Of a stretch of 64,000 bases of DNA, positions 7,524-40,818 are shown piece by piece; position 1 is the stretch's first letter; each line of letters starts with the position of its first letter. The notes below the pieces were generated by a model. It was given only the letters and a program-made list of their open reading frames with translations. It made no database searches and was not told the origin of the DNA. Source of the stretch: Brachybacterium halotolerans (GTDB lineage Bacteria; Actinomycetota; Actinomycetes; Actinomycetales; Dermabacteraceae); the NCBI RefSeq assembly GCF_016623465.1, contig NZ_JAEDAJ010000001.1:441963-505962 (forward strand). The letters are read 5' to 3'. The position numbers were made by a program, and so were the translations under genes.

Positions 7524-9317
7524 ATGAGCACAGTCCTGTCCGCGGTCGCCTGGCCGTACGCCAACGGTCCCCGCCACATCGGTCATGTCGCCGGCTTCGG
7601 CGTCCCCTCCGACGTCTTCTCGCGCTTCATGCGCATGGCGGGCCACGACGTGCTCATGGTCTCCGGCACCGACGAGCACGGCACCCCGATCCTGGTCGAG
7701 GCCGACAAGGAGGGCGTGACCGCCCGCGAGCTCGCCGACCGCAACAACCGGATCATCGTCGAGGACCTCGTCGCCCTGGGCCTCAGCTACGACCTGTTCA
7801 CGCGCACCACCACCCGCAACCACTACGCGGTGGTGCAGGAGATGTTCGAGGTCGTGCGCGACAACGGCTACATGATCGAGCAGACCACCTCCGGCGCCAT
7901 CTCGCCGTCGACCGGCCGCACCCTGCCCGACCGCTACATCGAGGGCACGTGTCCGATCTGCGGCGCCCCGGGCGCGCGCGGCGACCAGTGCGACACCTGC
8001 GGCAACCAGCTGGATCCGACGGACCTCATCGACCCGGTCTCCCGCATCAACGGCGAGACCCCGGAGTTCATCGAGACCACCCATTGGTTCCTGGACCTGC
8101 CCGCGCTCGCGGCGGAGCTCGGTCGCTGGCTCGACGAGCGCGAGGCGACCGGCCTGTGGCGTCCGAACGTGATCCGCTTCAGCCAGAACATCCTCCAGGA
8201 CATCAAGCCGCGCGCGATGACCCGAGACATCGACTGGGGCATCCCCGTGCCGGGCTGGGAGGACCAGCCCACCAAGCGCCTCTACGTGTGGTTCGACGCC
8301 GTGATCGGCTATCTCTCCGCGTCCATCGAATGGGCGCGGCGCCAGGGCGATCCGGAGGCATGGCGCCGCTGGTGGAACGATCCCGAGGCCCTCACCTACT
8401 ACTTCATGGGCAAGGACAACATCGTCTTCCACTCGCAGATCTGGCCGGCGGAGCTCATCGCCCAGAACGGCGAGGGCGACAAGGGCGGCGAGCCCGGCCG
8501 CTTCGGGAAGCTGAACCTGCCCACCGAGGTCGTCTCGAGCGAGTTCCTCACCATGGAGGGCCGGAAGTTCTCCTCCTCCAAGCGCATCGTCATTTACGTG
8601 CGCGACATGCTCGAGCGCTATCAGCCCGACGCGGTGCGCTACTTCATCTCCGCCGCGGGCCCGGAGAACCAGGACGCTGACTTCACCTGGTCCGAGTTCG
8701 TCTCGCGCACGAACAACGAGCTCGTCGCCGGCTGGGGCAACCTCGTGAACCGCACGGCCGCGATGATCGCGAAGAACGTCGGCGAGATCCCCGCCGCGGG
8801 CGAGCTCGAGGACGTCGACCGGGCGCTGCTGTCCCAGATCGAGGGCGGCTTCCGGTCCGTCGGCTCCCTCATCGAGGCCCACCGGCAGCGCGCCGCGATC
8901 GCCGAGGCCATGCGCCTGGTGGGCGAGGCGAACCGCTACGTCTCGGAGACGGAGCCCTTCAAGCTCAAGGCCCCCGAGCAGCAGGAGCGCCTGCACACGG
9001 TGCTCCACGTGCTTGCGCAGGCCGTCACCGACCTCAACACCATGCTCGCCCCGTTCCTCCCGTTCTCCGCGAACGCGGTCGAGCGGGCGCTCGGCGGGGA
9101 CCGGCAGATCGCCCCGCTGCCCGAGGCCCGCGAGGTCGAGGACCTGGACGGCGGCCCCTCCTACGCGATCATCACGGGCGACTACACGGACGTGCCCGTA
9201 TGGGGCCACCGCGACGTCGAGACCGGTCGCCCGGTCGCGAAGCCCTCGCCGATCTTCACCAAGCTCGACCCGAAGGTCGTCGACGAGGAGCTCGAGCGGC
9301 TCGACCCCGAGGCCTGA
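7524..9317 (+). CDS. metG: Methionyl-tRNA synthetase
   Basis: The 597-aa class I synthetase charges tRNA-Met. HIGH is intact at residues 18-21 ([10 protein letters not shown]). A zinc knuckle is present with CPICG and CDTCG pairs near residues 145-160. The KMSKS loop appears as KFSSSKR (348-354). The C-terminal half is the anticodon-binding helical domain; the appended dimerisation domain of longer MetRS is absent. A TAGACT box just upstream and the lack of a Shine-Dalgarno sequence support a leaderless start at 7524. The gene ends 9 bp from the convergent PIG-L gene. Confidence 0.97.
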
Positions 9318-26099: not shown

Positions 26100-27128
26100 G
26101 TGCACTACGCCCAGTCCGCGGCCGATCTCATCGGCTCCACTCCCCTGATCCGCCTGCAGCGCGTCACCGAGGGGATCGACGCGACCGTCCTGGTCAAGGT
26201 CGAGTACTTCAACCCCGGCGGATCCTCGAAGGACCGCATCGCCCGCACCATCATCGACGCCGCCGAACGGGAGGGCCGTCTGCGCCCGGGCGGCGTGATC
26301 GTCGAGCCCACGAGCGGCAACACCGGGGTGGGCCTCGCCCTGGTCGCCCAGCAGCGTGGCTACCGGACGGTCTTCGTGGTGCCGGACAAGGTGGGCCCCG
26401 ACCGTCGCGCCGTGCTCATGGCCTACGGCGCCGAGGTCGTGGTGACGCCGGCCGCGGTGGCGAAGGAGGATCCGCGCTCCTACTACAGCGTCGCCGATCG
26501 GCTGACGCGCGAGATCCCCGGTGCCTTCCAGCCCAATCAGTTCGTGAACCAGAACGGCCCGCTCGCGCACTTCCAGACCACGGGACCGGAGGTGTGGCGC
26601 GACACGGACGGCGCGGTCACGCACTTCGTCGCCGGCATCGGCACGGGCGGCACGATCAGCGGAGCGGGACGCTTCCTCAAGGAGGCCTCCGGTGGTCGCG
26701 TGCAGGTGATCGGCGCGGATCCGGAGGGGTCGATCTACTCCGCGGACCCCGCTGATCCCGAGCAGATCCACGCGAACCTCATCGAGGGGGTGGGCGTCAC
26801 CTTCGTCCCCGAGACCTTCCACCCCGAGGTCGTCGACGGCCTCCAGCGGGTCCCCGACGCGGAGTCCTTCGCGATGGCGCGCCGCCTCGCCCGCGAGGAG
26901 GGTCTGCTGGTGGGCGGCTCGAGCGGCATGGCCGTGGTCGCCGCCCTGCGCACGGCCCATGACCTGCCGTCCGACGCGGTGGTGGTCGCCCTGCTCCCCG
27001 ATCACGGGCGCGGGTACCTCGGGAAGCTCTTCGACGACGCGTGGATGCGCGAGAACGGCTTCGAGGTCGACGAGCCGGAGTCACTGGTGCCGGCGGACGT
27101 CCTCCGGGAGCTCGATCTCGAGCAGTGA
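26100..27128 (+). CDS. cysK: Cysteine synthase / cystathionine beta-synthase-like PLP enzyme
   Basis: The 342-aa protein is a fold-type II PLP enzyme. Lys44 in NPGGSSKDRIA binds PLP, TSGNTG binds the substrate carboxylate, and GIGTGGTISGAGR holds the PLP phosphate. No C-terminal CBS domains are present. The sequence resembles the actinobacterial CBS-like cysteine synthase as much as classical CysK, so either O-acetylserine or serine plus homocysteine could be the substrate. The start is GTG at 26100; the frame is open upstream but low-complexity. A strong hairpin follows at 27190, and the integrated element begins after it. Confidence 0.9.
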   Translation: MHYAQSAADLIGSTPLIRLQRVTEGIDATVLVKVEYFNPGGSSKDRIARTIIDAAEREGRLRPGGVIVEPTSGNTGVGLALVAQQRGYRTVFVVPDKVGPDRRAVLMAYGAEVVVTPAAVAKEDPRSYYSVADRLTREIPGAFQPNQFVNQNGPLAHFQTTGPEVWRDTDGAVTHFVAGIGTGGTISGAGRFLKEASGGRVQVIGADPEGSIYSADPADPEQIHANLIEGVGVTFVPETFHPEVVDGLQRVPDAESFAMARRLAREEGLLVGGSSGMAVVAALRTAHDLPSDAVVVALLPDHGRGYLGKLFDDAWMRENGFEVDEPESLVPADVLRELDLEQ

Positions 27129-27189
27129 CGGGCCGCGGGGCCGACGGTCGACGTCCGGTTCGGCCGCCCCACGAGCGTCCTGGACACGA

Positions 27190-27221
27190 CGAAGGCCCCC
27201 ACCATTCGGTGGGGGCCTTCG
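27190..27221. terminator. Strong hairpin terminator after cysK
   Basis: A perfect 14-bp stem, CGAAGGCCCCCACC with ATTC loop and GGTGGGGGCCTTCG, lies 61 bp after the cysK stop. There is no U-run on the plus side, but the GGGGGCC-rich stem is typical of high-GC actinobacterial terminators. It probably marks the last chromosomal feature left of the inserted element. Confidence 0.8.
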
Positions 27222-27298
27222 TGACGAGTCACTGTCTCACGGTTTCTCGAGTGGACCTAGCGGCAAGCTTGTCGAAACCTGCCCCGTCGTTGGTTCGC

Positions 27299-27682
27299 AT
27301 GGGCTCGATGCACCAGTCGATTCGCGTCCGCATGCTCAATGCCCGCCGCGAGGAGCCGCTCCCGCGTCAGCTTCCTCGCGCTAGCAAAGAACTGCTGGAC
27401 GTGGCGCAGAGGCAGTACGAGGCCGGCGCCACGTTGCGAGAGACTGCCAAGGAACTCGGGATCGGTCGGGAGCGGCTGGCCTTACTGCTGCGGGACCGGG
27501 GTGTACGGATGCGGCGTGCCACACCGTCGGCGGACGATGTGCGGGAGATGGCTCGTCGCTATTCCGGTGGTGAGTCGCTCGAACGCGTGGGCAAGCGCCT
27601 CGGATTCTCACCCAGCACAGTCCGCAACCATCTCCGGTCTATCGGCGTAGTGCTGCGTGACGTGCACGGACGTGAAAGGTAA
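27299..27682 (+). CDS. Small helix-turn-helix DNA-binding protein
   Basis: The 127-aa basic protein appears to hold two helix-turn-helix units: ATLRETAKELGIGRERLALL (about residues 45-64) and ESLERVGKRLGFSPSTVRNH (about 90-109). These look like the C-terminal HTH of resolvases and of element-encoded regulators. It has no catalytic recombinase domain. It is the first gene of the inserted element and sits 60 bp before the SF1 helicase on the same strand, so it may regulate or co-function with it. ATGs at 27299 and 27308 are both possible starts. Confidence 0.68.
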   Translation: MGSMHQSIRVRMLNARREEPLPRQLPRASKELLDVAQRQYEAGATLRETAKELGIGRERLALLLRDRGVRMRRATPSADDVREMARRYSGGESLERVGKRLGFSPSTVRNHLRSIGVVLRDVHGRER

Positions 27683-27742
27683 CGAACCTCGTCGATCGCC
27701 GAGATTGGACGTCAGGCACCTGTTGCTGCTCGACCGGGCAAG

Positions 27743-30700
27743 ATGGGGACCATGGGACTGGCTCGGGTCAGAGATGAGCGGCTTCGGATTCTGTCGTTCT
27801 GGTGGATGTTGGAGTTGTTCAGCCCGCAGCAGGTGCCGGCGTTGACGCGTCGAGCGACCCGCCCGTCGGATCGTCAGGTGATCGCGTGGCAGTCCGGGGA
27901 TCCTCTCCCCTGGGATGTACTGGCTCCGCCCGAGCCGTTCCACGGGACGCGCAGGGTCTGGCGCCACACCCTGTATCTGGGCGTCTACAAGCTGGAGGCA
28001 ACCTACGAGGCGTTGGGCCGTGTGTTCGGCGAGGATCCTGACGCCTACGACAAGCGACCCGACGGTGAGAGCGCCTGTGCCGGGCTCCTGATCGATAACG
28101 AGGGTCGACTGGTCACCGATTCGGCGGTGCTGTCATCAGCGCTCTGGGCAGCTGGCCGGACACGAGATCCAGGACCGAGCAACCCGCGCTGGATGGCCGG
28201 GTTCGACGAGGCCGCGGAAGAATTCGTCGAGTCGGTTGACGCTTTTGAAGGCGCCCGCCGCGACGCCGATGGCGGAGAGCAGCCCCCGCCTTACGACTCG
28301 GACTCGCTGAACGAGTTGCTGAAGCTCTCCCATGTCGCTGCCGGAGTCGAAGGCTTCGATGACCTCGCGAACGAGCGCCTGGTGATCGAGAGTGTGGCGG
28401 TGTCGGCGCGACGGGCCGAGGACGGAACGGACACCGACTTCTTGAACAGCTTCTACCTCGACGATCTCGCGGCTGTGCGCACCCATGTCGCAGGCGGAGA
28501 TCTCGGCGCCGGCCTTGCCACATATCTCACCGGCGACCAGACACTTCCCGTGTCCGACCGCATCGATGTCGTCACGCACCCGGGCGCGATAGACGCAGGC
28601 ACCGCGATCGAGCGCCTCCCCAAGGGCCGGTGGCCGGCAAACCCGGAGCACTCGCTCGCCTTGAGCCAGCAGTTCGCTGTCAACCGCGCGCTGAACGACC
28701 TTGGGCATAGCACTGGCCTGATGGGCGTCAACGGGCCACCGGGCACGGGCAAGACGACCATGCTGCGCGACATCCTCGCCGGGAACGTCGTCGAGCGAGC
28801 CCGACGACTCGCGGCTCTGTCTCGGCCTTCGGATGCCTTCACTGAGGTCACGCACCGATGGTCCGATGGCGAAGGCCACTCCCGGATCGTTCGCCAGCTC
28901 AAACCCGAGCTGACGGGATTCGAGATGGTCGTCGCGTCGGCGAACAACGCGGCCGTCGAGAACGTCACCACAGAGATACCCGACGAGAACGCCATCAACG
29001 CGCCGTGGCGCGGCCACATCGACTACTTCGGTGATATCGCGACCAAGATCCTCCAAGACGTGGCCTCCAGCAACACCACCGGCAACGCGACACCGCCAAC
29101 AGCCTGGGGCCTCGTCGCCGCCCGACTCGGCAGAAAGAAGAACCGCTCGGCCTTCCACTCAGCGTTCTGGTTCGACGAAAAGGACCCCAAGACCAAGAAG
29201 CCTGTCGAGAACGGCGTCCCAAGGATGCAGACAAGACTGACGCAGTGGCGCGACGGCGACGCTCCCTACACGCCCTGGGCACAAGCACGCGAAGCCTTCC
29301 ACGCAGCCGAACAGCGCGTCGACGTACTCATCCGGCAACGGGCGCAGGCCCAGGATCGGCTCCGCCGAGTCCCGGAACTGGCTGAGCGTGAACGTGGTCT
29401 CGAAGCGGCCATCGATCAGGAACTACGAGGTCTGAACCGGGCCCAACACGATCTGTCCCAGCATCAACCCGTTCAGCAGCAGGCAGATGAAGCCCGCGCG
29501 CAAGCCGTCAAGAGCCACAACCGGCACCTCGCCGCCAAGCCCGGCGTGCTGGAGACGATCTTCTCCTTCGGACGAGCCGTACGAGCTTGGCGCATACGCC
29601 TCGACGACCTCGCGCGAGCACTGGACAACGCCGAGCAACACCACCGAGAAGTGCACGACCGCGGGGAACGGCTCCACGACGCCGTACAGCATGCCCGAGC
29701 ACGGCTGTCCTCAGCTCAACACGACCTGAACAGCACTCGAGATCAGCGGAGCAGACTTCAGGCTCAGTGTGCGCAGGACGAAGAACGGTTCGGTGCGGCC
29801 TATCCCGGCCCGGCATGGCAGGGTGATCAACGAGAGCTACACGCGCCCTGGCTCGACGAAGAGCTCGACAGAGCACGCTCTGACCTCTTCGTCGCCGCGC
29901 TCCAACTGCACCAAGACTTCCTCGCCAACACCGCACGCGACATGCTCAACGGCCTGCGTGCCGCCGGTGAGGTCGTCGCCGGGAACTATCCACGCGACCT
30001 CGAGCCAGAGAAGCTCCGGGCCGCCTGGCAACTGTTCTTCCTAGTCGTTCCGTTGATCTCCACAACTTTCGCCTCGGCCAGCCGGATGTTCAGCGGCATC
30101 GGCTCAGAGGCGATCGGCTGGCTGCTCATCGACGAAGCAGGCCAAGCCTCACCCCAGTACGCCGTCGGCGCGATCTGGCGCGCGCAACGCATCGTCGCAG
30201 TGGGCGACCCGCTCCAGCTCGAACCCGTTGTCACACTCCCCGAGAAGGCACAGCGCAATATCGCCAGCAGTTGCGACATCAGCACGACCTGGATCCCGCC
30301 ACGCGCTTCCGTCCAGACCCTGGCCGACCGCGTCACACCGTTCGGAACGCTGCTCGATCAAGGCGAGGACAAGGTATGGGTCAGCGCGCCGCTGCTGGTG
30401 CATCGCCGCTGTGACAACCCAATGTTCACCCTGTGCAACCAGATCGCCTACAACAACCTCATGGTCAACGGCGTCCACCGCGACCTCAACGACCCCCACG
30501 AGCGCTTCGACAGCCCGACCGGTCCGATCATCGCCGCCAGCTACTGGGCCGACGAGCCGGCCAACAGCCCAGGTAGCCATCTCCAACCAAGTCAGATCGA
30601 GCGGCTAGAGAAGGCCCTCGCCTACTTGAACGACCACGGCATCCCACCGTCGGAGGTCATCGTCATCTCCCCATTCCGAGCCGTCGCAGACCGCCTCCGC

Positions 30701-30955
30701 ACCCTCATCCCGAAATACCAGGGCCTCCAAGCCGGGACCATTCACACAGCGCAAGGACGCGAAGCCGCCGTCGTGATCCTCGTCCTCGGCGGTGACCCCA
30801 GCAAACCGGGAGCACCCGCCAACTGGGCACGGACCCCGAACCTCGTCAACGTCGCCGCCAGCCGTGCGAAACGCCGCCTCTACGTCATCGGCGATCGCGC
30901 CTTCTGGGCACGACACAACTACTTCCGAGACCTATCCAACGCCCTCCTTCAATAG
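27743..30955 (+). CDS. Large SF1 (Upf1/Dna2-like) AAA helicase, defence-type cargo candidate
   Basis: The 1070-aa protein has about 300 N-terminal residues of unrecognised sequence, then a complete SF1 helicase: Walker A GPPGTGKTTMLRD (about 330), motif II LLIDEAGQASPQ (about 793), motif III VGDPLQLEP, motif V TIHTAQGREAAVV and motif VI NVAASRAKRRLYVIGD (about 1030). A long Arg/Glu/Gln-rich coiled coil (about residues 505-690) splits the two RecA lobes, a 1B/stalk-like insertion seen in Upf1-type enzymes. No nuclease domain is obvious. It converges on the SF2 helicase across 101 bp. Such stand-alone helicases are frequent in defence islands. The start may be the second ATG (27752). Confidence 0.85.
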   Translation: MGTMGLARVRDERLRILSFWWMLELFSPQQVPALTRRATRPSDRQVIAWQSGDPLPWDVLAPPEPFHGTRRVWRHTLYLGVYKLEATYEALGRVFGEDPDAYDKRPDGESACAGLLIDNEGRLVTDSAVLSSALWAAGRTRDPGPSNPRWMAGFDEAAEEFVESVDAFEGARRDADGGEQPPPYDSDSLNELLKLSHVAAGVEGFDDLANERLVIESVAVSARRAEDGTDTDFLNSFYLDDLAAVRTHVAGGDLGAGLATYLTGDQTLPVSDRIDVVTHPGAIDAGTAIERLPKGRWPANPEHSLALSQQFAVNRALNDLGHSTGLMGVNGPPGTGKTTMLRDILAGNVVERARRLAALSRPSDAFTEVTHRWSDGEGHSRIVRQLKPELTGFEMVVASANNAAVENVTTEIPDENAINAPWRGHIDYFGDIATKILQDVASSNTTGNATPPTAWGLVAARLGRKKNRSAFHSAFWFDEKDPKTKKPVENGVPRMQTRLTQWRDGDAPYTPWAQAREAFHAAEQRVDVLIRQRAQAQDRLRRVPELAERERGLEAAIDQELRGLNRAQHDLSQHQPVQQQADEARAQAVKSHNRHLAAKPGVLETIFSFGRAVRAWRIRLDDLARALDNAEQHHREVHDRGERLHDAVQHARARLSSAQHDLNSTRDQRSRLQAQCAQDEERFGAAYPGPAWQGDQRELHAPWLDEELDRARSDLFVAALQLHQDFLANTARDMLNGLRAAGEVVAGNYPRDLEPEKLRAAWQLFFLVVPLISTTFASASRMFSGIGSEAIGWLLIDEAGQASPQYAVGAIWRAQRIVAVGDPLQLEPVVTLPEKAQRNIASSCDISTTWIPPRASVQTLADRVTPFGTLLDQGEDKVWVSAPLLVHRRCDNPMFTLCNQIAYNNLMVNGVHRDLNDPHERFDSPTGPIIAASYWADEPANSPGSHLQPSQIERLEKALAYLNDHGIPPSEVIVISPFRAVADRLRTLIPKYQGLQAGTIHTAQGREAAVVILVLGGDPSKPGAPANWARTPNLVNVAASRAKRRLYVIGDRAFWARHNYFRDLSNALLQ

Positions 30956-31056
30956 GCGCAGCCGCTCACACGCGCCCTTCCGGGCAACTTGAGCGCGCTT
31001 CCTTGCTGTCTGCCGGAGTGCGGGTGCGGACACTCCCGGACCATCGCTCTGCGCGA
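30956..31056. other. Short gap between the two convergent helicases
   Basis: Only 101 bp separate the convergent helicase genes. CCGGAGTG and CACTCCCGG around 31013-31041 can form a weak stem that might end transcription from both sides. No gene is present. Confidence 0.4.
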
Positions 31057-34000
31057 TCAGTCCGATCCGTAGACCTCAAAACCGCCTTTGGTCACGGTCT
31101 GCACATATGAGGCAGCGCCGGCGATGAGCCTTAGCTGCTCGTCACTCGCTGAACCGATGCTCAGGCCTGGCTGGACAATGATCGTCGTGAACCGCGGGAA
31201 CAGCAGACACGCTTGCTGCCTGATCCGGAAGAGCATCTCGCGATCACCGATTTCGAACGCCGTCCCTCCAAAGCGGCGCGTATATCCGACGGCCCGTCGG
31301 TCGAGGTGCTCGAGGAGTGGCAACGCTGCGTTGTCTCGCCATCGCGCGCCGCGCATCGCTTGGCCGCAGACTTCGTAGAGGTCCTTGAGGCGGGATCCCG
31401 CATCTGGTTTCGAGGAGTACTTGCAGTGCACCAGCGTGACGTGCAGGTCCCCTCCATCGACTCGGATGCCGACGAGGTCGGCTGCCTCACCCGACCTGTC
31501 ATCGTCGATGAGGACGTCAAAGGTCTGGTTCTCACCGAGGTAGCGCGCCATGAAAGCCTGGATCGAGTCGGCTCTGCGATCGGGGCCCTGCGATTCGACG
31601 GCGATGTTCACACCTCCGGCGGCCCAGTCGAGAGAACGCAGGTTGTCGCGGGGATATGGCGGAAGCTCGGTTCGGGGCGCGAGCAGCCGGTCATCGCCGG
31701 TGATCAGTCGGTCGCCGGAGAGAAGGAGCGTGGGCTTGTGGTTGTTTAACCAGGTCGACAGAGGCGCTGTCGATCCGCGCCCTCCCTCGACCGTGGCATC
31801 GTCACCCAGTGCACGGTAGTGCACACCAGTCGAACCGAACCGCCCCTCGTACGCGAGCTCCCACGTAGGTGTGACGACGGAGAAACGAAGTGGGCCGTCG
31901 ACTCCGTAATCGTCGATCCTCAATCCGGCATCGGTCAACGGAACGCCGTTGGCGTTGAAGACAACGCGTGAGGACGTTCCGGCGCCGACGTAGAGCTCCC
32001 ATGGCCACTCGACCGCGAGGAACGGGTACGGGGGCCGCTCCTTGACGTCGACAGGGATGATCATGTCGCGGAACAGCGATCGGACGTCAACAGACCTGTC
32101 CCGCAGCTTCGCTCCCTGATCGCGACACCATCGTCGCCATTCTGCAAGGTTCGACGCCGTTCGCATCGACCAGAATCTCCCGGATAGCGCCGCTGCAATC
32201 GTGACGCGCTCTCCCTCTTGAAACGCCTTGGCTGCGACGTGTGTGTTGGCCTTGTGGGTGCGCTCGGCTTCTGTCAGTGCCGTCTCGACATCGCTTCCCA
32301 CGTGCATGGAGAAGCGCTTGTCACGATCCCGGGCATCGAGTAGCCCAATGTTCGTCGGAACGAGGCGGTCGAGCTTTGCAAAGACCTTGAAGGTGTCGTA
32401 ACCGTTGACCGGCGCCGGTTCATGCCCGACCACTGCCTCGACGAGATCGTCCAGGCTGCGTTTGGTGTCCGAGCAGTGAACGTAGAGGAGCCCCTGCGTC
32501 CGATCGAGGAAGAGCACGACGAGCGTGTAATCAGTGGCTCGCAGGGATGGGATGTCACCCCAGCGGAGATCGGAGACCGTCTCGATCACGAACCAGGCGA
32601 TGGTGTCATCACGGTTGACACTAATCAGGCCGTCCAAGATGCTGTCGCCGAACACGGCACGGGCCGCCAGCGGGTCCCAGTCCACGGTCGTCGTCGCGAA
32701 GGCGCGAGCGCTCATCTTCGGTTCCAGCAGGCCAACAGGCACGTCAGGCGGATTGTCAAGGAACGAGGCCTCGAACTCGCTGATCTCGTCAGCTCGCTCG
32801 GTCGCACGCTCCGTAATGTCGCTGAGGACCTTGTCCCAGTCGGGATCCTCTCGCAGGAGAAAACGCAACGGCGAGAGCGCCTGCTTCGGATCCTGGCGGA
32901 TGAAAACGCTCGCGGTTCCGATCGGGACGGGAGATGACGTACGGGCGAGCCGGCCGATGAGCTGGACCATAGGGCTCAGGGATCGATGCGTGTCATGGAA
33001 CGCTCCGACCTTGAGCGTGGGGAGGTCGAAGCCTTCGCCCAGCATGTCGACGCAAACGATCACGCGGCTGGACCGCTCCCGCATGGCTCGGATCGCCGCG
33101 TCACGTTCGCTCGCCCGCAGCGAGTCGTAGATCACCTTCGGAGCGAACTCGGGAGCGAGTCGCGAGTACAGCGCGTGGATCTCGTCGGCCCGAGGCTTCG
33201 TCGCGACCCGAGCCAGGAGTAGGTGTTCGTGCCCGGCGTCCAGATCGCTACGGAGCCGAGACAGCGCGGCTCTGGCAAGCGCTTCGTCATCGTCATCCAG
33301 ATCAAGGACGGCCGTGAAGTCAATCGTGCTGAAGTAGCCTTCTTTCTGTGCCTCCCGAAGCGGGAAACGAAAGATCACTCGTCCCGGCAACGTCAGTCCG
33401 TCACGCCGGTAGGGGGTCGCGGTGAACAGCAGGACGGGACGCTCCCCGAAGGCGCGGATGATCTCCGTCCACGTTCGCGCTGGCGCGTGATGCGCCTCAT
33501 CGACCAGGAGGTGTGTGAACCCAGAGAAGAACGCTCGCCGCACGGCATCCTCTGACGCGTGGATCGCGTTCGGAGTCGCCACCACGACGTTGCAGGCAGC
33601 CACGAAAGCGGCCGCGTCCTGTTCGCTGTCGAATCGTCCGGCGACTCGCCCGACCCGCGGTCTCATCGCGTCCGGCCCGACGATGCCCTCTTGCTGGAGG
33701 ATGCCGAGCGTCTCGAACTTTGAGGCAATCTGCTCTCTCAGAGCCGAGGAAGGGACCACGACAAGGACGCGTTCCGGACGCTGCGCGACCAACCATGCCA
33801 CCATGGTCTCGGTCTTGCCCGTCCCCGTGGGCATCACCACGATTCCTGGCTCTGTGAGGCCCGACGACTGGTATCCGACGATGGAATGCAGCGCACCGAT
33901 CTGCGGGCGACGCAGGCTGTGCGGGCGACTGTGGGACGTGAACCCGATCGCTCCGTCGAAGGACTCCCTCACGGCATCCGCGGGTAAAGGGTGCCTCGAT

Positions 34001-34263
34001 CCCACCCAGGTGATCTCGTCGCCCGATGCGCCGTTCTCGGGAAGGACGGCGACCAGGCCTTCTTCGCGCGGTTCGTCTGGTCCTGATGCGGTCGGCCACT
34101 GTCCGTACCTGCTTCGAATGTGCGGAGCAGGTCCGTCCGCGAGGTCGAGTCCATCGTGGGCCGGGACCAGCAATTGACGGAGCGTGTTCTTCCCGATGGC
34201 CTCCGTGGTCGCCCACACGTCGCTGGTTCTCACTGCAGCCACCCTGCGGTCGCACCAGCACAC
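31057..34263 (-). CDS. SF2 DEAH helicase with a possible C-terminal nuclease domain
   Basis: The 1068-aa protein is a ResIII/UvrB-like SF2 helicase: Walker A VVMPTGTGKTETMV (about 143), DEAH box LLVDEAHHAP (about 253), motif III FTATPYRRDG and motif VI QLIGRLARTS. A long middle region is unrecognised. Near residues 920-960 is GEAADLVGIRVDGG followed by VTLVHCKYSS, which has the spacing of a PD-(D/E)xK nuclease core with His in place of the usual Glu of ExK, then DLYEVCGQAMRG. No methyltransferase or specificity gene is adjacent, so it is not a normal restriction system. The GTG at 34263 or an in-frame GTG at 34233 (behind AGGGTGG) may be the start. Confidence 0.83.
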   Translation of the reverse strand: MCWCDRRVAAVRTSDVWATTEAIGKNTLRQLLVPAHDGLDLADGPAPHIRSRYGQWPTASGPDEPREEGLVAVLPENGASGDEITWVGSRHPLPADAVRESFDGAIGFTSHSRPHSLRRPQIGALHSIVGYQSSGLTEPGIVVMPTGTGKTETMVAWLVAQRPERVLVVVPSSALREQIASKFETLGILQQEGIVGPDAMRPRVGRVAGRFDSEQDAAAFVAACNVVVATPNAIHASEDAVRRAFFSGFTHLLVDEAHHAPARTWTEIIRAFGERPVLLFTATPYRRDGLTLPGRVIFRFPLREAQKEGYFSTIDFTAVLDLDDDDEALARAALSRLRSDLDAGHEHLLLARVATKPRADEIHALYSRLAPEFAPKVIYDSLRASERDAAIRAMRERSSRVIVCVDMLGEGFDLPTLKVGAFHDTHRSLSPMVQLIGRLARTSSPVPIGTASVFIRQDPKQALSPLRFLLREDPDWDKVLSDITERATERADEISEFEASFLDNPPDVPVGLLEPKMSARAFATTTVDWDPLAARAVFGDSILDGLISVNRDDTIAWFVIETVSDLRWGDIPSLRATDYTLVVLFLDRTQGLLYVHCSDTKRSLDDLVEAVVGHEPAPVNGYDTFKVFAKLDRLVPTNIGLLDARDRDKRFSMHVGSDVETALTEAERTHKANTHVAAKAFQEGERVTIAAALSGRFWSMRTASNLAEWRRWCRDQGAKLRDRSVDVRSLFRDMIIPVDVKERPPYPFLAVEWPWELYVGAGTSSRVVFNANGVPLTDAGLRIDDYGVDGPLRFSVVTPTWELAYEGRFGSTGVHYRALGDDATVEGGRGSTAPLSTWLNNHKPTLLLSGDRLITGDDRLLAPRTELPPYPRDNLRSLDWAAGGVNIAVESQGPDRRADSIQAFMARYLGENQTFDVLIDDDRSGEAADLVGIRVDGGDLHVTLVHCKYSSKPDAGSRLKDLYEVCGQAMRGARWRDNAALPLLEHLDRRAVGYTRRFGGTAFEIGDREMLFRIRQQACLLFPRFTTIIVQPGLSIGSASDEQLRLIAGAASYVQTVTKGGFEVYGSD

Positions 34264-34553
34264 GCCTCGGAAACAGACGTGTCAACGTGGGATGGCCGTT
34301 GGCCAGATGATCTACGGAGCTTCCAACGCAGGCATGCTTCAGCGCGCTGCGCCAGGTCTGGTGTCGTCACCGGGTGCCTCCTACCGGTGACACGGTCACC
34401 TATCTGCAGATGCTCATTGAATTCATCATGCTGGACCGCACATGTTCTTCGTGAGCCGACACGCGGCCGCGCGCGAGAGGTCTATCGAGAACTCCATCGG
34501 GCTGTGGCTGCCGTTACCGGATGTACGGTCACAGGACACAGGCATGCGGGCGG
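34264..34553. other. 290-bp gap upstream of the SF2 helicase gene
   Basis: No gene is recognised. The gap must contain the SF2 helicase promoter, reading leftward, and the end of the transcript of the 178-aa gene. No clear hairpin or inverted-repeat operator was found, and base composition is clearly less G+C rich than the chromosome. Confidence 0.4.
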
Positions 34554-35090
34554 TCAGAACGGCAACGAGGCCCCCAGCGCATCGATCACCTGTCGAGCGC
34601 CCTCGGCAGCCTCCTCGGTCGCAGCCTTTCCGAGACCCGCGCTGATCGGGGCAAGCAGTCCCTTGATGAGAGTGACTCCCCGCCGCACGATGCCCTGATC
34701 GGGCTCGGACTTGACCACTTCCTGGAGGACGAGGTTGGCGTTCTCGCGGAGCTCTGCCCCGTCGGTCTCGTCAAGCTGAAAGGTCGACAGGCTCGCCAGG
34801 ATGTCGGTGAGCAGTTGCGCAAGTTGCTCGTACCCAGCGGCGACCTGCTCGCTGTGCTCCTGAACCTGCGTGACGCTCTGGTTGTCCCATGCGAGCTGGG
34901 CGTGGTCTCCGTTCACGGTGACGACTGGCCCGTTGTAGTTGTTGACTGTTGTGGCAGCCGGGAGCGAGACGACGCCGTGGTCGGCTTCCAGCGGCACCCG
35001 GACGGGGTTCTTGGCGAACTCGCGCTCGATCTCGCGCGACATCTTCCGTATGGCCTGCTTGTTGATCTTGAACCCGTTCGCCATGCTCAC
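34554..35090 (-). CDS. Conserved hypothetical protein, possible defence accessory
   Basis: The 178-aa protein has a basic N-terminus (KINKQAIRKMSREIEREF), then a central Asn/Gln/Val-rich stretch containing TVNNYNGPVVTVNGDHAQLA and WDNQSVTQVQ. The alternating NxxVxGDxxQ pattern suggests a short beta-solenoid like those in AbiTii-type proteins. A helical C-terminus ends in a Gly/Ala-rich amphipathic segment (GLLAPISAGLGKAA). The GTG at 35090 follows AGGA by 6 nt and is preferred over the ATG 6 bp later. It reads the same way as the SF2 helicase, 290 bp upstream of it. I recognise no function. Confidence 0.65.
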   Translation of the reverse strand: MSMANGFKINKQAIRKMSREIEREFAKNPVRVPLEADHGVVSLPAATTVNNYNGPVVTVNGDHAQLAWDNQSVTQVQEHSEQVAAGYEQLAQLLTDILASLSTFQLDETDGAELRENANLVLQEVVKSEPDQGIVRRGVTLIKGLLAPISAGLGKAATEEAAEGARQVIDALGASLPF

Positions 35091-35310
35091 ACCACTTCCT
35101 GCTCCGGAGGATCGCCTGCACCAAGGATCGCATGCAGCACAGACATCGGAGCGCCGTTCGAGGCCTTCCCTCGTCGCTCTGACAGGAGTATTTTGATGAG
35201 TAGGCGGCCTCTACCTACGTGACCCACTGCCGGATGCAGTGGGATGACCAGTCGGCCTCGGTCGGAGCGGTCCTTCTTGATTCCTTGTCACCGGAGACGA
35301 GGAGAGGACT

Positions 35311-35661
35311 GTGCTCATGTTCCGCCTGATCTGGATCGGCAGCGTCTACACCCACTACTTCGTGCGTCGATACATGCCCACCAACATCCTGCTGGACCTG
35401 ATCCGTACGCGCCGTGGGCTGAAGTGGGGCCTGCCGGCGATGCTGCTGGCCATCCCGTATCTGTACGTGGCGAGCTTGCTGACGGTGCTGATCGAGGACG
35501 GCGCACCGGACTGGCTGCACGTGCTGGTGGTGTTGTGCATCTGGAACGCGATGAAGTTCGCGAGCATGGGCCCGGTCAGCGTCGTCCTGCTGCTGCGGGC
35601 GCGCGCCATCGAGTGGGGCGAGCGTTGTAGGTCTCGCCGCTCCGTGTCCGCGGTCGCCTGA
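35311..35661 (+). CDS. Small membrane protein of conjugative elements
   Basis: The 116-aa protein has two or three hydrophobic segments (LPAMLLAIPYLYVASLLTVL and WLHVLVVLCIWNAMKFASM) and the conserved-looking opening FRLIWIGSVYTHYFVRRYMP. Similar small proteins occur in actinobacterial integrative elements beside DprA and relaxase genes; the role is unknown. The GTG at 35311 has an excellent GGAGAGG site 4-6 nt upstream. It is followed 69 bp later by the DprA gene on the same strand. Confidence 0.7.
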   Translation: MLMFRLIWIGSVYTHYFVRRYMPTNILLDLIRTRRGLKWGLPAMLLAIPYLYVASLLTVLIEDGAPDWLHVLVVLCIWNAMKFASMGPVSVVLLLRARAIEWGERCRSRRSVSAVA

Positions 35662-35730
35662 CCGCACCCTGTTGCGTGAGGGCGGTTGTGCACCTTCTCG
35701 GCGTCATCTGACCGAGAAGGAGGCCTCGTC

Positions 35731-36735
35731 ATGGCCGGTATCGCTGACCTGGCAACTGATGAATGCCACGCGCGGATGCTGTTGTCGATCCTGTCCGGAC
35801 CCGACGACGCCACCACTGGGCACATCCTTGCCCGTGAGGGTGGGGTCGAGACGATCCGCCGGCTCGATGATGACGGCGCGGTGCCGGGGCTGAATCGTGT
35901 GGACGCGCGGGTCTGGCGTGATCGCCTCGCGTTGCCGCGCCGACTGGAAAATGTGGCCGGGCGGATGCGCGACATCGAGCAGTCCGGGATCGCGACGGTG
36001 ATTCCGGGTGATGCGCACTGGCCGCAGGCGCTGAACGATCTGGGCGACCGTGCCCCGTACGTGCTGTGGGCGCGCGGTGCGACGTCGTTCCTGGCCCGGC
36101 CGACCGCCGATCTGGTGACGGTCACTGGTGCTCGGGCGGCGACGGCGTATGGCGAGCAGGTCGCCTGCGAAATCGCTGGCGACCTCTCGCACGGTGAGCG
36201 GGTCGTGGTGGCCGGCGGCGCATACGGGGTCGAGGGTGCCTCTCACCGGGCAGCGCTCGCGTCTGGTGGCGACACGATCGCGGTGCTCGCCAACGGGGTC
36301 GACCGCCCATACCCGACCGGTCATCGCGAACTGCTTGATCGAATCGCAGATGTTGGCCTGTTGGTCAGTGAGGTGCCGCCGGGGTCGGTACCGACGCGGC
36401 AGCGGTTCCTGGCGCGCGGCCGGTTGATGGCCGCACTCTCTGGGAGCACCGTTGTGGTCGAGGCGGGCGTACGTTCAGGCGCGCTGCATACGGCGGTCGA
36501 GGCGCAGCGTCTGGGCCGAAGCGTCGGCGCGGTCCCGGGGCCGGTGACCTCGGTGACCAGCAGCGGCCCGCACATGCTGCTGCGTAACGGCACCGCCCAG
36601 CTCGTCACCGACGGCAGCGACGTCGAGGACCTGATCAACCACGCGCCAGAACGCGGCGCCGATCGCGCAGCGCTGGGTCCGGAGTTCGCACACCGCCCGG
36701 TGCCGTCAACGGATAAACCGACGCGGTCGATGTAG
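35731..36735 (+). CDS. DprA/Smf-like DNA-processing protein, element-encoded
   Basis: The 334-aa protein has the DprA Rossmann domain: VTVTGARAATAYGEQVA, VVVAGGAYGVEGASHRAAL (the GGAxGID-type loop) and TIAVLANGVDRPYP, then RGRLMAALSGSTVVVEAGVRSGALHTA. DprA loads RecA on incoming single-stranded DNA during transformation. Element-borne copies may protect or process single-stranded transfer DNA. The C-terminal winged helix of chromosomal DprA is reduced. The ATG at 35731 has an AAGGAGG site; a longer upstream frame is not needed. It is likely co-transcribed with the small membrane protein. Confidence 0.85.
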   Translation: MAGIADLATDECHARMLLSILSGPDDATTGHILAREGGVETIRRLDDDGAVPGLNRVDARVWRDRLALPRRLENVAGRMRDIEQSGIATVIPGDAHWPQALNDLGDRAPYVLWARGATSFLARPTADLVTVTGARAATAYGEQVACEIAGDLSHGERVVVAGGAYGVEGASHRAALASGGDTIAVLANGVDRPYPTGHRELLDRIADVGLLVSEVPPGSVPTRQRFLARGRLMAALSGSTVVVEAGVRSGALHTAVEAQRLGRSVGAVPGPVTSVTSSGPHMLLRNGTAQLVTDGSDVEDLINHAPERGADRAALGPEFAHRPVPSTDKPTRSM

Positions 36736-36761
36736 CCCCCCGGTCGCCGTCCTCTTCGTGC

Positions 36762-36793
36762 AAGGGCCTCGCATCCCGTGATGCAAGGCCCTT
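36762..36793. terminator. Bidirectional hairpin between dprA-like gene and relaxase remnant
   Basis: AAGGGCCT..GCATC pairs with GATGC-AAGGCCCTT around a short CCGT loop, with one unpaired base in the left arm. It lies 27 bp after the plus-strand DprA stop and 25 bp after the minus-strand relaxase stop, so it suits both. TTCCTCTTGTCC follows on the plus strand. Confidence 0.7.
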
Positions 36794-36817
36794 CCTCTTG
36801 TCCTCTGTCCGATCTGG

Positions 36818-38371
36818 TCATAGTTCGAGCTCTCGGGCGAGGCGCTGAGTGGGCCGCTGCTGGTCTCGGTGCTGCGGGCCGGTGAGTGCGCGGAATGCTG
36901 CGTCTGCACGGGCACGATCGATCTTCTGCGCGGTCCCCTCCGGTATCGGGCCGAGCGGACTCCCGTCGGTGATCGCGTAGCGATCGCGGTACGCGGCGAT
37001 GATCCGGGCATGTAGATGCCACCGCTGCCGCCCACGGGCATCTGTCGGCGGTGTGCCGAGCGGGCGTGTCCAGGGTTCGTCGGCGCGGATCGCTGTGTCG
37101 AGGACGGCGTCGGCGCGGGCTTCGATCAGGTCACGACGCTCGTCCAATGCCTGACGCATGTCTGCGGCGACCTGGCCGTCGACTCGTGGGATCAGGCCAA
37201 CAATCAGGCGTGCTGGTCTACGGGTACGGCCGGAACCGGCCGGGCGCGCGGTGGCGTGAGCGAGGCGGTGGTGGATGATCGAGGCGATGTCGTCGGCGTC
37301 CTCGAGTCCACGGGCTTGGATGAGGCGTGGCAGGAGCTGGTCGACGTCGTGATGGTTGGCCTCGGTCCGTCGCAGATCCGCGGTCAGTGCACCGAATGCC
37401 TCGGAGTCGATGACGGTCTCGGCTTGCTCGTCGGTGAGCCCGCTGGTGCGGATGAGCTGAGCCCAGCGGTCGTGTTGGGCGGCTTGGGCGATGGTCTCGT
37501 ACTCGGCGGCGAGCTGTGCGATTGAGCCCCAGGCCTCCTGCTCGGCGGTGATGGTCTCGTGCGCGGAGAGCTCTGCCCCGACGTGCTGCAGCACTCCGTA
37601 GAGCACGGTGCGGGCGGTCGCGTCGGGGTTGTCTGACGGGTGCGGCGCGGCGTGGTCGTCGGGGCGGTTCAGCACCACGTAGGCGCGGTTGGAGTCGCGG
37701 CCGCGGGTCATGGCTACATAGAAGTTCTCCCGTGTTGTCGTCGGCTCGACCAGCACATGCGCAGTGTCGGTGGTGATGCCCTGCGCCCGATGCGCTGTCA
37801 CCGCGTACCCGAGATCGACATGCGCGGCAGCGTAGGCAGCCGGAAGGACGAGGGGGCCGCCGAACCGGCGCCCGGTCTTGCGGATGGTGATGGAGCCGTC
37901 GTCGCGGACGGCGGTGATGGTCCAGCGTTCGCCGTTGCGGATCCAGTCCTTCCCGTTCCGCAGCCGGCGGTCGTTTCGGCGAGTGATGATCGTGTCCCCG
38001 ACACCGGCCCGGTTGCCATCGTTCAGGTCGACCTCGCGGCCTGGGCGGAGGGTGCCGTCGAGGATGAGGTCGGCACGGGCTCGGTTGTTCAGCTCGGTGA
38101 CGTCGTCGCGGGATTCCGCGATCAGCACCGACACGTGCCCCGCGGCCCCGTCAGCGCGCCATGCCATGTAGGCGGCATCGATCATCGGTTCGGCATCGCC
38201 GTCGGTGATGCGGTCGTGATCGAGGTAGGTGTCGATCACCTCGGTGCGTCCGTGCCGCAGTGCCAGGGATGCGGTCTTCCCCCACCCATGGGTGAACCGG
38301 TGCACGTCGATGAGCTCCGGGGCATCGTCGCGGTCGGAGACGAGGAGGTTGAACGCTCCCCCGGCATCCAC
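36818..38371 (-). pseudogene. TraA/MobF-type relaxase, C-terminal fragment
   Basis: About 518 codons of the C-terminal part of a conjugative relaxase-helicase remain. RecD-like helicase motifs are visible: GYAVTAHRAQGITTDTAHV (motif V) and NFYVAMTRGRDSNRAYVV (motif VI), followed by the long charged tail typical of TraA. The N-terminal relaxase domain with the catalytic Tyr and the first Walker A are missing. The reading frame runs into the left end of the IS3 element at 38372, so the first part was lost there. It is transcribed toward the DprA gene. The fragment cannot nick DNA. Confidence 0.85.
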
Positions 38372-38419
38372 TGAAGCGCCCTGGGTTCCGTTCCGAGTCT
38401 CAGCAAGGAGAATCGGAGC

Positions 38420-38734
38420 ATGCCCAAGAAGTTCAGTCCAGAGCTGCGTGACCGTGCCGTGCGCATGGTCTACGACCGGCAGGCACTCGAAGGTGGCCCC
38501 AGATCGGTGTCGATCCGTGCGGTCGCACCTCAACTCGGTGTTGGCATGGAGACGCTGAGGATCTGGTGCAACCGCTACGGGCCGGTCGAACCCTCTGCCG
38601 GCCCCGGGGAGTCGCTCGAGGAGGAGAACCGCCGGCTACGTCGAGAGCTCGCCGAGTCCCGGCGGGCCAACGAGATCCTCAAGGCCGCGTCCGTGTTTTT
38701 CGCCAAGGAACTCGACCACCCCACGACGAATTGA
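38420..38734 (+). CDS. IS3-family transposase OrfA (HTH protein)
   Basis: The 104-aa protein starts MPKKFSPELRDRAVRMVYDR and has an IS3 OrfA helix-turn-helix plus a C-terminal leucine-zipper-like helix (LEEENRRLRRELAESRRAN). It binds the inverted repeats and joins OrfB by -1 frameshifting to form the full transposase. A GTTTTTC run near 38694-38700 is the only slip-like site seen and is not an ideal heptamer. The ATG is 48 bp inside the left end. Confidence 0.92.
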   Translation: MPKKFSPELRDRAVRMVYDRQALEGGPRSVSIRAVAPQLGVGMETLRIWCNRYGPVEPSAGPGESLEEENRRLRRELAESRRANEILKAASVFFAKELDHPTTN

Positions 38735-39645
38735 TCGCCTTCATCGACAGGCATCGCGATCGCTTCGGGGTCGAGGCCATCTGCCGCATCCTGGGCGCGA
38801 CAGAACGTGGATTCCTCACCTCTCGCGGCTACCGCGCCGCGAAGCAGCGCCCGGCATCGGCCAGGGCGATTCGTGACGAGGTGCTCGTCGAAGAGATCCG
38901 TCGGATTCATGCCGAGAACTACGGCGTCTACGGGTATCGGAAGATGCATCACGCGATGCGCCGTGCCGGATGGGACATCGGCCGCGACCAGACCGCTCGG
39001 CTGATGAAAGCTGCTGGTCTGTGCGGGATGCGCCGTGGCCGAAAGGTGCTCACGACGAGCTCTGCTGGTGGCCCGGACCTTCGTCCTGATCTGGTCGAGC
39101 GGGACTTCACGGCTGCCGGACCGAATCGGCTCTGGGTCGCTGACATCACTTACGTCCGGATCCCGTCCGGGTTCTGCTACACCGCGTTCATCACGGACGT
39201 CTTCACGCGAAGGATCGTCGGCTGGGCGGTGGCCACCACCCTCCACACCGAGGCGCTGCCACTGCAGGCTCTCGAGCAGGCCCTCCAGACCACCCCGGCA
39301 GAAGCGTCCCGGACTGGGCTGATCCATCACAGCGACAGAGGCAGCAACTACGTCTCGTTGGCTTACTCCGATGCGCTGATCACTGCCGGGGTCCAGGCCT
39401 CGGTCGGACCAGTCGGGGACAGCTACGACAACGCCTTGGCCGAGACCGTCAATGGTCTCTACAAAGCCGAGCTCATCCACCGACGCCGCACCTGGCCCTC
39501 AGCTGCCGCAGTCGAGATCGCCACCCTGGACTGGGTCAACTGGTGGAACACGAAGCGCCTTCACGAAGCCCTCGACTATCGCACCCCGGCCGAACTCGAA
39601 GCGGCCTACACTCGCCCCACGACGACCGCACCCGCGACCGTCTAA
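38731..39645 (+). CDS. IS3-family transposase OrfB (DDE integrase)
   Basis: About 304 residues in the -1 frame relative to OrfA. The DDE triad is visible: WVADITYV (D), HHSDRGSNYVS (D) and YDNALAETVNGLYKAELIH (E). The HTH_21 segment YGVYGYRKMHHAM is also present. The TTG at 38731 overlaps the OrfA stop, so either reinitiation or frameshifting from upstream (the frame stays open from 38566) would make the product. All catalytic residues are intact, so the IS may still be active. Confidence 0.92.
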   Translation: MIAFIDRHRDRFGVEAICRILGATERGFLTSRGYRAAKQRPASARAIRDEVLVEEIRRIHAENYGVYGYRKMHHAMRRAGWDIGRDQTARLMKAAGLCGMRRGRKVLTTSSAGGPDLRPDLVERDFTAAGPNRLWVADITYVRIPSGFCYTAFITDVFTRRIVGWAVATTLHTEALPLQALEQALQTTPAEASRTGLIHHSDRGSNYVSLAYSDALITAGVQASVGPVGDSYDNALAETVNGLYKAELIHRRRTWPSAAAVEIATLDWVNWWNTKRLHEALDYRTPAELEAAYTRPTTTAPATV

Positions 39646-39672
39646 CCACGGAACGAAACCCAGTGCGCTTCA

Positions 39673-40754
39673 ACATCCGCTCCACGGATGCGAACGGCCG
39701 AGAAGTGCGCGACGTGGAGCTCGACACGGACCGAGCCGACTTGATCCGGTTCGCGTTCACCGCCTACGCCACCGGGGACTGGTCGCTGTCCAAGCTCGCC
39801 CGCGAGCTGGAGACCCGCGGTCTCACCACCAGGCCGACACCGTCGTATCCGGCAAAGCCGGTCACGACGAAGCTGCTGCACAAGATCCTCACGAACCCCT
39901 ACTACCAGGGCATCGTCACGTTCGGCGAGGTCACCTACCCCGGCTCGCATGAGCCGCTCGTGACCCCGGAGACGTTCGACCAGGTCCAGACGATCCTCCA
40001 GCAGAACAACATCGTCGGCGACAAGCCGCAGAAGTACGACCACTACCTCAAAGGCTCGATCTACTGCGCCTGCGGGAAACGGCTCATGTTCGAGCGGCCC
40101 CGCAACCATCAAGGCGTCACCTACGACTACTTCACCTGCACCGGCCGACGCTTCAAACGCAACACCTGCCAGCGCACCGCGATCCTCGTCCACCGCGTCG
40201 AAACCAGCATCGAGAACCGCTATGCCAACGTCTCCATCACCGAGGACGAGGGCAAGCGGATCAAGGACGTGCTCGGGCAAGTGTTCGATTCCCTGGCCGC
40301 GTCGACCAGTGACGAGCGGAAGCTGCTCACCACGCAGAAGACGAAGCTCGAAGCCGAGCAGGTCAAGCTCCTCCAAGCCCACTACGCGGACGCGATCCCC
40401 ATCGACCTGCTCAAGACCGAGCAAGACCGCATCCGCGCCAGCCTGGCCCAGATCACCAGACGACTCGACACCCTCGACACGACTCACGAGAACGCGAAGA
40501 TCGGACTCGACGGCATCCTCGGGCTCCTCACCGACCTCAGCGACGTCTACGCCAAGGCCGAGCCCGCCGAACGACGCATGCTCAACAGGGCACTGTTCGA
40601 CCGCATCACTATCGATGCCGACGACCACGCCGGTCTCAGCCCGAACCACACGATCGCTACGATCCTCGCCGCCAAGACCAGCGGACACAACGAAAGAACC
40701 TTGCCCCGCAATGATGCGGGCAAGGTTCGAACGTTTCCGATTGGGTGGAGCTAA
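39673..40754 (+). pseudogene. Large serine recombinase, N-terminally truncated
   Basis: About 360 codons remain of a large serine recombinase (an integrase of mobile elements). Visible are the Recombinase domain (TGDWSLSKLARELETRGLTT and LHKILTNPYYQGIVTFGEV), the zinc ribbon (YCACGKRLMF ... CTGRRFKRNTC) and the coiled-coil arm (about 40300-40560). The N-terminal resolvase domain with the catalytic Ser and Arg residues is gone, cut at the right end of the IS at 39672. A GTG inside the IS end (39663) could start a fragment. The stop codon lies within the tRNA-Ala 3' end, so the last 9 bp overlap the tRNA gene. Confidence 0.88.
40697..40727. terminator. Hairpin at the right end of the element
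   Basis: AACCTTGC(C)CCGCA pairs with TGCGGGCAAGGTT around ATGA, with one bulged C. It lies in the last codons of the recombinase fragment, 19 bp before the tRNA. It may be a terminator for the tRNA reading leftward or for the recombinase, or part of the attachment site; the sequence does not decide. Confidence 0.5.
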
Positions 40755-40818
40755 GGGGATTCGAACCCCTGACCTCTTCCATGCCATGGAAGCGCGCTAC
40801 CAACTGCGCCATAGCCCC
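40746..40818 (-). tRNA. tRNA-Ala (anticodon GGC)
   Basis: The minus-strand 73-nt sequence begins GGGGCTATGGCGCAGTTGG and folds as a standard cloverleaf. The acceptor pairs GGGGCTA with TAGCTCC (one G-U) plus discriminator A. The anticodon stem is CTTCC/GGAAG with loop ATGGCAT, giving anticodon GGC for GCC alanine codons. The T-arm is GGTTCGAATCC. CCA is not encoded. The element's recombinase fragment ends within its 3' end, which marks it as the integration target. Confidence 0.97.

Follow-up and report, generated by a model that had tools for sequence, protein, structure and literature searches.

Two separable helicase genes as candidate stand-alone defence modules on a tRNA-Ala island of Brachybacterium halotolerans

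SauUSI, a type IV restriction enzyme of solved structure (7clg), cuts with a PLD domain. A PLD-like domain is likewise listed for Mokosh type II (PMC10952713), and a 2026 survey describes fusions of a PD-(D/E)XK nuclease with a superfamily 2 helicase that serve BREX loci as auxiliary effectors of restriction (PMC12839542). Hachiman (HamAB), which has no methylase and acts by end or damage sensing, divides the work between two proteins, a superfamily 2 helicase and a PD-(D/E)XK-type nuclease, the DUF1837 protein HamA, which uses residues E138 and K140 (PMC12278908). How does a locus that places two very large helicase genes face to face compare with these systems? Here we consider such a locus in 64,000 nucleotides of Brachybacterium halotolerans DNA (this whole stretch is "the window" below), where a superfamily 1 helicase (SF1) and a superfamily 2 helicase (SF2) are encoded in a mobile element integrated at a tRNA-Ala gene. 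An original prediction, made from the sequence alone, had taken the convergent pair for uncharacterised, possibly defensive cargo of a stranded element.

The reading toward which we lean, with moderate confidence, is that two unrelated stand-alone invader-response genes lie side by side as cargo of the island, SF2 probably a translocase-nuclease and SF1 a strand-binding ATPase. It had been foreseen correctly that two open reading frames (ORFs) of nearly equal size (1070 and 1068 aa) face each other across 101 bp, and that they belong to different superfamilies; AAA_11/AAA_12, TIGR00376 and AlphaFold matches place the one, and ResIII, DEAD and Helicase_C the other. What did not survive is the pair as a unit. 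The two genes keep company only in one recently spread cassette, present in six loci at about 88–91% DNA identity, each copy starting no more than 30 bp from the attachment (att) core. All six copies keep SF1 intact and three keep SF2 intact (the window, Arachnia L027 and Brevibacterium mcbrellneri L031); in the others SF2 is cut down to aa 933-1068 (Corynebacterium L028), to aa 673-1068 (L029) or to a stub of 41 bp (Microbacterium lacticum L030). In a set of 297 genomes from the order, 17 have relatives of SF1 and 4 have relatives of SF2; the only two with both are the window genome and G241, the latter being the genome of the Brevibacterium cassette; and in every locus read for distant relatives of SF1 (27–80% identity) or SF2 (27–62%), the other helicase is absent. 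We therefore reject a conserved two-gene system, given that co-occurrence is confined to a single cassette of ~90% identity in which SF2 decays alone: SF1 and SF2 are two separable modules. Even their matching length and convergent layout seem incidental, because SF2 genes in other loci face convergent neighbors that are unrelated to each other (a shared partner of ~310 aa, suspected in several loci, proved to be a set of unrelated proteins). The locus is nonetheless more than chance, for the cassette recurs in six loci, and its copies show purifying selection on both helicase genes, with ratios of nonsynonymous to synonymous substitution (dN/dS) of 0.14-0.20 for SF1 and 0.10-0.13 for SF2. The homologues do occur independently, which counts against the pair, but their contexts are not random: both families keep defence-rich neighborhoods, and the idea of mobile defence cargo is supported for SF2 and plausible for SF1, each taken singly and not as a joint unit.

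Of the two proteins, SF2 is the easier to place. Its sequence and neighborhoods suggest that it is most likely a methylase-free, ATP-dependent DNA restriction enzyme, a variant of the helicase-nuclease restriction enzymes, and that a defence role is likely. The helicase motifs are intact and invariant in the alignment, and the core is nearest by profile to XPB, RadD and SauUSI. A large, uncharacterised middle region (aa 450-880) leads to the C-terminal module, where E890, E926-x-A-D929, H946-x-K948-x-S950 and Q968 are invariant in distant homologues; the pattern GExAD...HxKxS returns, with small variations, in 15 of the 15 homologous loci checked. A structure model of low overall confidence predicts the order helix-strand-strand-strand-helix for this module, which would fit a nuclease of the PD-(D/E)XK-like kind in which H stands where D/E is usual.

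Relatives of SF2 stand beside defence genes in 8 of the 14 loci read: BREX genes on a Sinorhizobium plasmid (L232, 2453-11859); Shango SngC, a PD-(D/E)XK nuclease and a UvrD helicase on a Paracoccus plasmid (L233, 1-11940); a type I restriction-modification (RM) system in Vibrio; a type III restriction subunit, Abi_C and PDC-S06 (L163); AbiEii and SIR2 (L226); type II RM and LmuB of Lamassu (L063); DrmB, within a Tn7-like element (L040); and an Abi protein (L039). On the two alphaproteobacterial plasmids, L233 and L232, a PD-(D/E)XK protein of ~885 aa precedes the SF2 homologue, as does an AddAB-like UvrD/PDDEXK protein in Paracoccus, and the arrangement is possibly a larger helicase-nuclease operon. 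Scans of viral contigs with the SF2 helicase motifs returned mostly generic helicases, true relatives being only L163 and L226; matches in the phage collection were few, with flanks (read for the SF2 match) that resemble bacterial chromosome.

SF1 has a better structure model (pLDDT 81.8, pTM 0.79), and the best solved-structure matches to it are Senataxin, Sen1, Upf1, IGHMBP2 and Aquarius. Its motifs, Walker A GPPGTGKTT at aa 331 and DEAGQ at aa 797, are intact, and the long coiled-coil insertion that had been read from the sequence of this Upf1-like protein is located by the model at aa 512-686. Profile and structure searches give no family match for the N-terminal region (about aa 1-295), and SF1 has no recognisable nuclease, neither an HKD motif nor a Pfam PLD match. 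A defence role is plausible from the company its relatives keep. Chromosomal homologues sit among HerA, SIR2, DrmD, type IIG, SoFic and GajB-like genes and not among transfer genes, and the PADLOC models listed near them include HerA, SIR2, DrmD, SoFic and PDC-S37. Some SF1 homologues are followed on the same strand by other genes, a Schlafen AlbA_2 protein (L051, 11932-13200) or a DUF4238 protein (L035, 13308-14393). In locus L048, which has DrmD-like and type IIG genes, a 160-aa PLD-domain ORF (7595-8077) lies directly upstream of the SF1 homologue; it is possibly a nuclease partner acting in trans or part of the adjoining DISARM-like genes.

How might two such proteins act? SF2 would combine an ATP-driven DNA translocase and a nuclease in one protein, without its own methyltransferase: its XPB/RadD/HsdR-type motor would move along DNA, and its PD-(D/E)XK-like module would use a D...HxK site to cut foreign or damaged DNA. 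The SF1 ATPase, equipped with its N-terminal domain and coiled-coil arm and no recognisable nuclease, would load on single strands or RNA-DNA hybrids that come from incoming phage or plasmid DNA and would block or remodel them, perhaps under the control of the helix-turn-helix (HTH) protein encoded upstream. Several points weigh against this reading. The nuclease-like module matches no Pfam or PDB profile (only chance-like matches, to MotB and SelB, were returned), which is why we infer a nuclease rather than recognise one; the possible nuclease core of the original prediction thus gains an invariant C-terminal motif, but no library match. The SF2 model is poor (pLDDT 51.6) and unfit for fold comparison beyond the helicase. 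For SF1, the comparison of PADLOC models matched at 1e-25, 41 around ten chromosomal homologues versus 1 in controls (104 ORFs in seven regions of the same genomes), is small and counts models, not proteins, and therefore stands for at least five distinct defence-type proteins versus one. Finally, on Klebsiella plasmids the SF1 homologue looks like a near-fixed gene of the transfer region, which also suits a plasmid function.

Is SF1, then, a matter of immunity at all? It may instead be a housekeeping gene of plasmids and integrative and conjugative elements, processing nucleic acids in transfer or establishment, with SF2 a defence gene that became its neighbor by chance, and we regard this as somewhat unlikely. 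A lone SF1 homologue, about 33% identical to SF1 across 95% of its length, is carried by Klebsiella MOBH/MPF_F plasmids, IncFIB/IncHI1B ones included; it is flanked by traG and a lytic transglycosylase gene, and nearly all records with that traG have this slot filled (582 plasmid records with the homologue versus 596 with the neighboring traG); other plasmids have SF1 homologues near mobI or mobH, and the window element, too, is of conjugative descent. Yet the chromosomal homologues live among defence-type genes rather than transfer genes, occurrence is patchy (the 17 of 297 genomes above), and transfer regions are also known to hold defence cargo; we modestly favor immunity over a transfer-linked function. 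Because the Klebsiella gene stands alone, SF1 would seem to need neither SF2 nor any fixed nuclease partner for its work. This bears on the idea of one two-component system, in which one helicase senses or unwinds and the other cuts, the convergent locus expressing both. In three genera the two genes are adjacent and intact, with purifying selection on both, but SF1 persists where SF2 is destroyed (L028, L029, L030), homologues of each occur alone, and convergent genes cannot share one promoter, so that we find such a system very unlikely.

Two further alternatives would assign each protein to a described class. SF2 could be a modification-dependent type IV enzyme like SauUSI that cuts only methylated or otherwise modified DNA. 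No methyltransferase was found among the ten element-region proteins scanned, which leaves SF2 without the cognate modification gene of a type I or type III restriction subunit (SF2 homologues adjoin complete RM systems in some loci only); SauUSI 7clg is the nearest of the restriction enzymes of known structure to its core (4.3e-18), and the middle region is large enough that it could read modifications. The nuclease of SauUSI is a PLD, however, and the C-terminal module of SF2 differs; no SRA/EVE-type reader domain was found. Other methylase-free designs, such as end or damage sensing in the manner of Hachiman (PMC12278908), fit equally well, and the present data do not distinguish the two modes of action; we judge type IV restriction, taken by itself, to be unlikely. 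We scarcely credit the assignment of SF1 to Mokosh type II (as MkoC). SF1 is of the same superfamily and matches the PADLOC MkoC model at 3e-60, but only over profile positions 244-946 of 1136 and at about 201 bits, where the top-scoring MkoC-like proteins within the order reach 650-700 bits; these form a clade apart from SF1 in a tree that also holds long branches of unsure placement (L042, a PDC-S37-like branch and L059); and the HKD motif of PLD domains is absent from SF1 and from the window genes scanned. By these measures, membership in Mokosh type II is ruled out, and the SF1 family is related to MkoC but distinct. Separately, a set of actinomycete proteins (L239-L244) score about 390-700 bits on the MkoC model yet have no HKD motif, and the model may therefore gather more than true Mokosh II.

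The element that carries the two genes was said to be stranded, and so it is: repeats flank it, a sister genome has the site empty, and its integrase and relaxase genes are shortened (Table 1). GC content falls from about 0.74 to 0.64 over 27-41 kb of the window. In the sister species G692, the flank left of 27251 (93% identical) joins the flank right of 40744 (97%) at C19:217261/217262, in a junction that reads ...TTTCTCGAGTGGAGCTAAGGGG, and because the two flanks abut there the element spans 13,494 bp. The left core is found again at the left end of L027, of L028 and, with one mismatch, of L029, and Corynebacterium L028 holds a 6-kb relative in the same site, between a core at 9508 and tRNA-Ala(GGC) at 15523. 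Its ancestor was a conjugative element. Two mobility genes, for the TraA relaxase and the serine recombinase, are both truncated, and a single IS3 copy exactly fills the space between them; the simplest reading is that one insertion, together with a deletion, immobilised the element.

The smaller genes of the island add less. Both neighbors that had been described, an HTH protein and a protein of 178 aa, are present as ORFs (27041-27682 on the plus strand and 34554-35090 on the minus strand), and the first needs a corrected start: 27041 falls outside the element, so the true start lies at or after 27251 and is probably ATG 27299, homology to relatives beginning at 27224-27251. The HTH gene is weakly constrained (dN/dS 0.5-0.8). 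As a conserved partner of SF1 it was set aside, since it occurs only in the close cassette and the small upstream genes elsewhere are unrelated; the 178-aa protein fares no better as a partner of SF2, being present in one relative only (L031) and carrying a stop there. The DprA-like gene has no recognised ShosT partner beside it, for all its match to ShosA. As predicted, no cognate methyltransferase and no complete named system came to light among the element proteins scanned.

Table 1. Features of the island and of related loci (window positions unless a locus is named)
Feature	Position	Strand	Basis or remark
SF1, Upf1/Senataxin-like helicase, 1070 aa	27743..30955	+	AAA_11/AAA_12 (Pfam), TIGR00376 (IGHMBP2 family), AlphaFold
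SF1 coiled-coil insertion, aa 512-686	29276..29800	+	AlphaFold model, two long helices
SF2, helicase with C-terminal nuclease-like module, 1068 aa	31057..34263	-	Pfam, alignment of homologues
SF2 helicase core, aa 116-445 (PTGTGKT at aa 145, DEAHH at aa 255)	32929..33918	-	Pfam ResIII (3.4e-21), DEAD, Helicase_C; invariant columns
SF2 C-terminal nuclease-like module, aa 880-1068	31060..31626	-	Residues invariant in distant homologues
Klebsiella plasmid SF1 homologues	L258 6723-10064; L041 9863-13213		Between traG and lytic transglycosylase gene
Integrated mobile element, 13,494 bp	27251..40744	.	Flanks contiguous in sister genome G692; GC 0.64 vs 0.73-0.75 outside
attL-like core GTGGACCTA	27251..27259	+	Repeats tRNA-Ala 3' end found at 40745
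Small protein, two HTH segments, possible SF1 regulator; start inferred	27299..27682	+	HTH_38, Sigma70_r4
178-aa accessory protein, weak PDC-M14B similarity (2e-8)	34554..35090	-	Not conserved with SF2
Small membrane-type protein, 116 aa, probable element backbone	35311..35661	+	No family match
DprA-like protein, probable element backbone	35686..36735	+	Pfam 5.7e-58; PADLOC ShosA 1.4e-46
TraA-type relaxase-helicase remnant, relaxase half missing	36818..38371	-	TIGR02768 profile positions 485-715/751; cut at IS3 end
IS3-family insertion sequence	38372..39672	+	rve/HTH_21; terminal inverted repeats 18/20
Large serine recombinase remnant, resolvase catalytic domain missing	39673..40754	+	Pfam Recombinase only; PHROG integrase positions 257-561/651
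tRNA-Ala(GGC), integration site	40744..40818	-	ARAGORN
attR-like core GTGGAGCTA, within tRNA-Ala 3' end	40745..40753	+	Repeat pair with GTGGACCTA

Why should one care about two such genes? The locus shows unrelated defence-like genes that travel together briefly and then part, and it is a caution against calling neighbors a system. A bolder proposal, which we hold to be rather doubtful, is that SF1 founds an unrecognised single-protein family of Senataxin/Upf1-like helicases for immunity or plasmid competition, one that has spread from islands of actinomycetes into Klebsiella IncFIB/IncHI1B conjugative plasmids, where its slot in the transfer region is fixed, and that acts nuclease-free on the RNA-DNA hybrids or single strands of invaders, with SF2 as a separate one-protein restriction family with a D...HxK site. 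If the reading favored here is right, SF1 would belong to a large Upf1-like helicase family; in one major lineage of Klebsiella plasmids for resistance and virulence, the transfer region nearly always includes a member, which could influence the phages and plasmids that these strains tolerate. SF2 would bring to the restriction repertoire a helicase-nuclease that has no methylase and whose catalytic motif is unusual. Within an incomplete coverage of the literature, we found no paper that names either family.

How near, in the end, do the two proteins come to what has been described? With SauUSI, SF2 has in common that both are large single proteins with a superfamily 2 motor and no methyltransferase, but SF2 is without a PLD (no PLD match, no HKD motif) and ends in another module. 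The BREX auxiliary fusions (PMC12839542) likewise join a helicase core to a C-terminal nuclease or nuclease-like module, and L232 does lie beside BREX genes; SF2, however, has D...HxK rather than D/E-x-K and no profile match, and its family lives mostly outside BREX. Hachiman is a candidate for working in a similar way, by coupling a superfamily 2 helicase to a nuclease or nuclease-like part with no methylase, whereas SF2 is one polypeptide with HxK, the HamB profile covers its helicase motifs only (9.8e-6), and DUF1837 was not found in its C-terminal module or in the element proteins scanned. For SF1, the eukaryotic RNA- and DNA-processing helicases Senataxin/Sen1, Upf1 and IGHMBP2 have the same helicase-core fold but share only the motor (11–21% identity), and no counterpart of its N-terminal domain was matched in them. 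MkoC of Mokosh type II has in common with SF1 a helicase core of the COG1112/Upf1 kind, and SF1 parts from it in having no PLD, another N-terminal region and a clade of its own.

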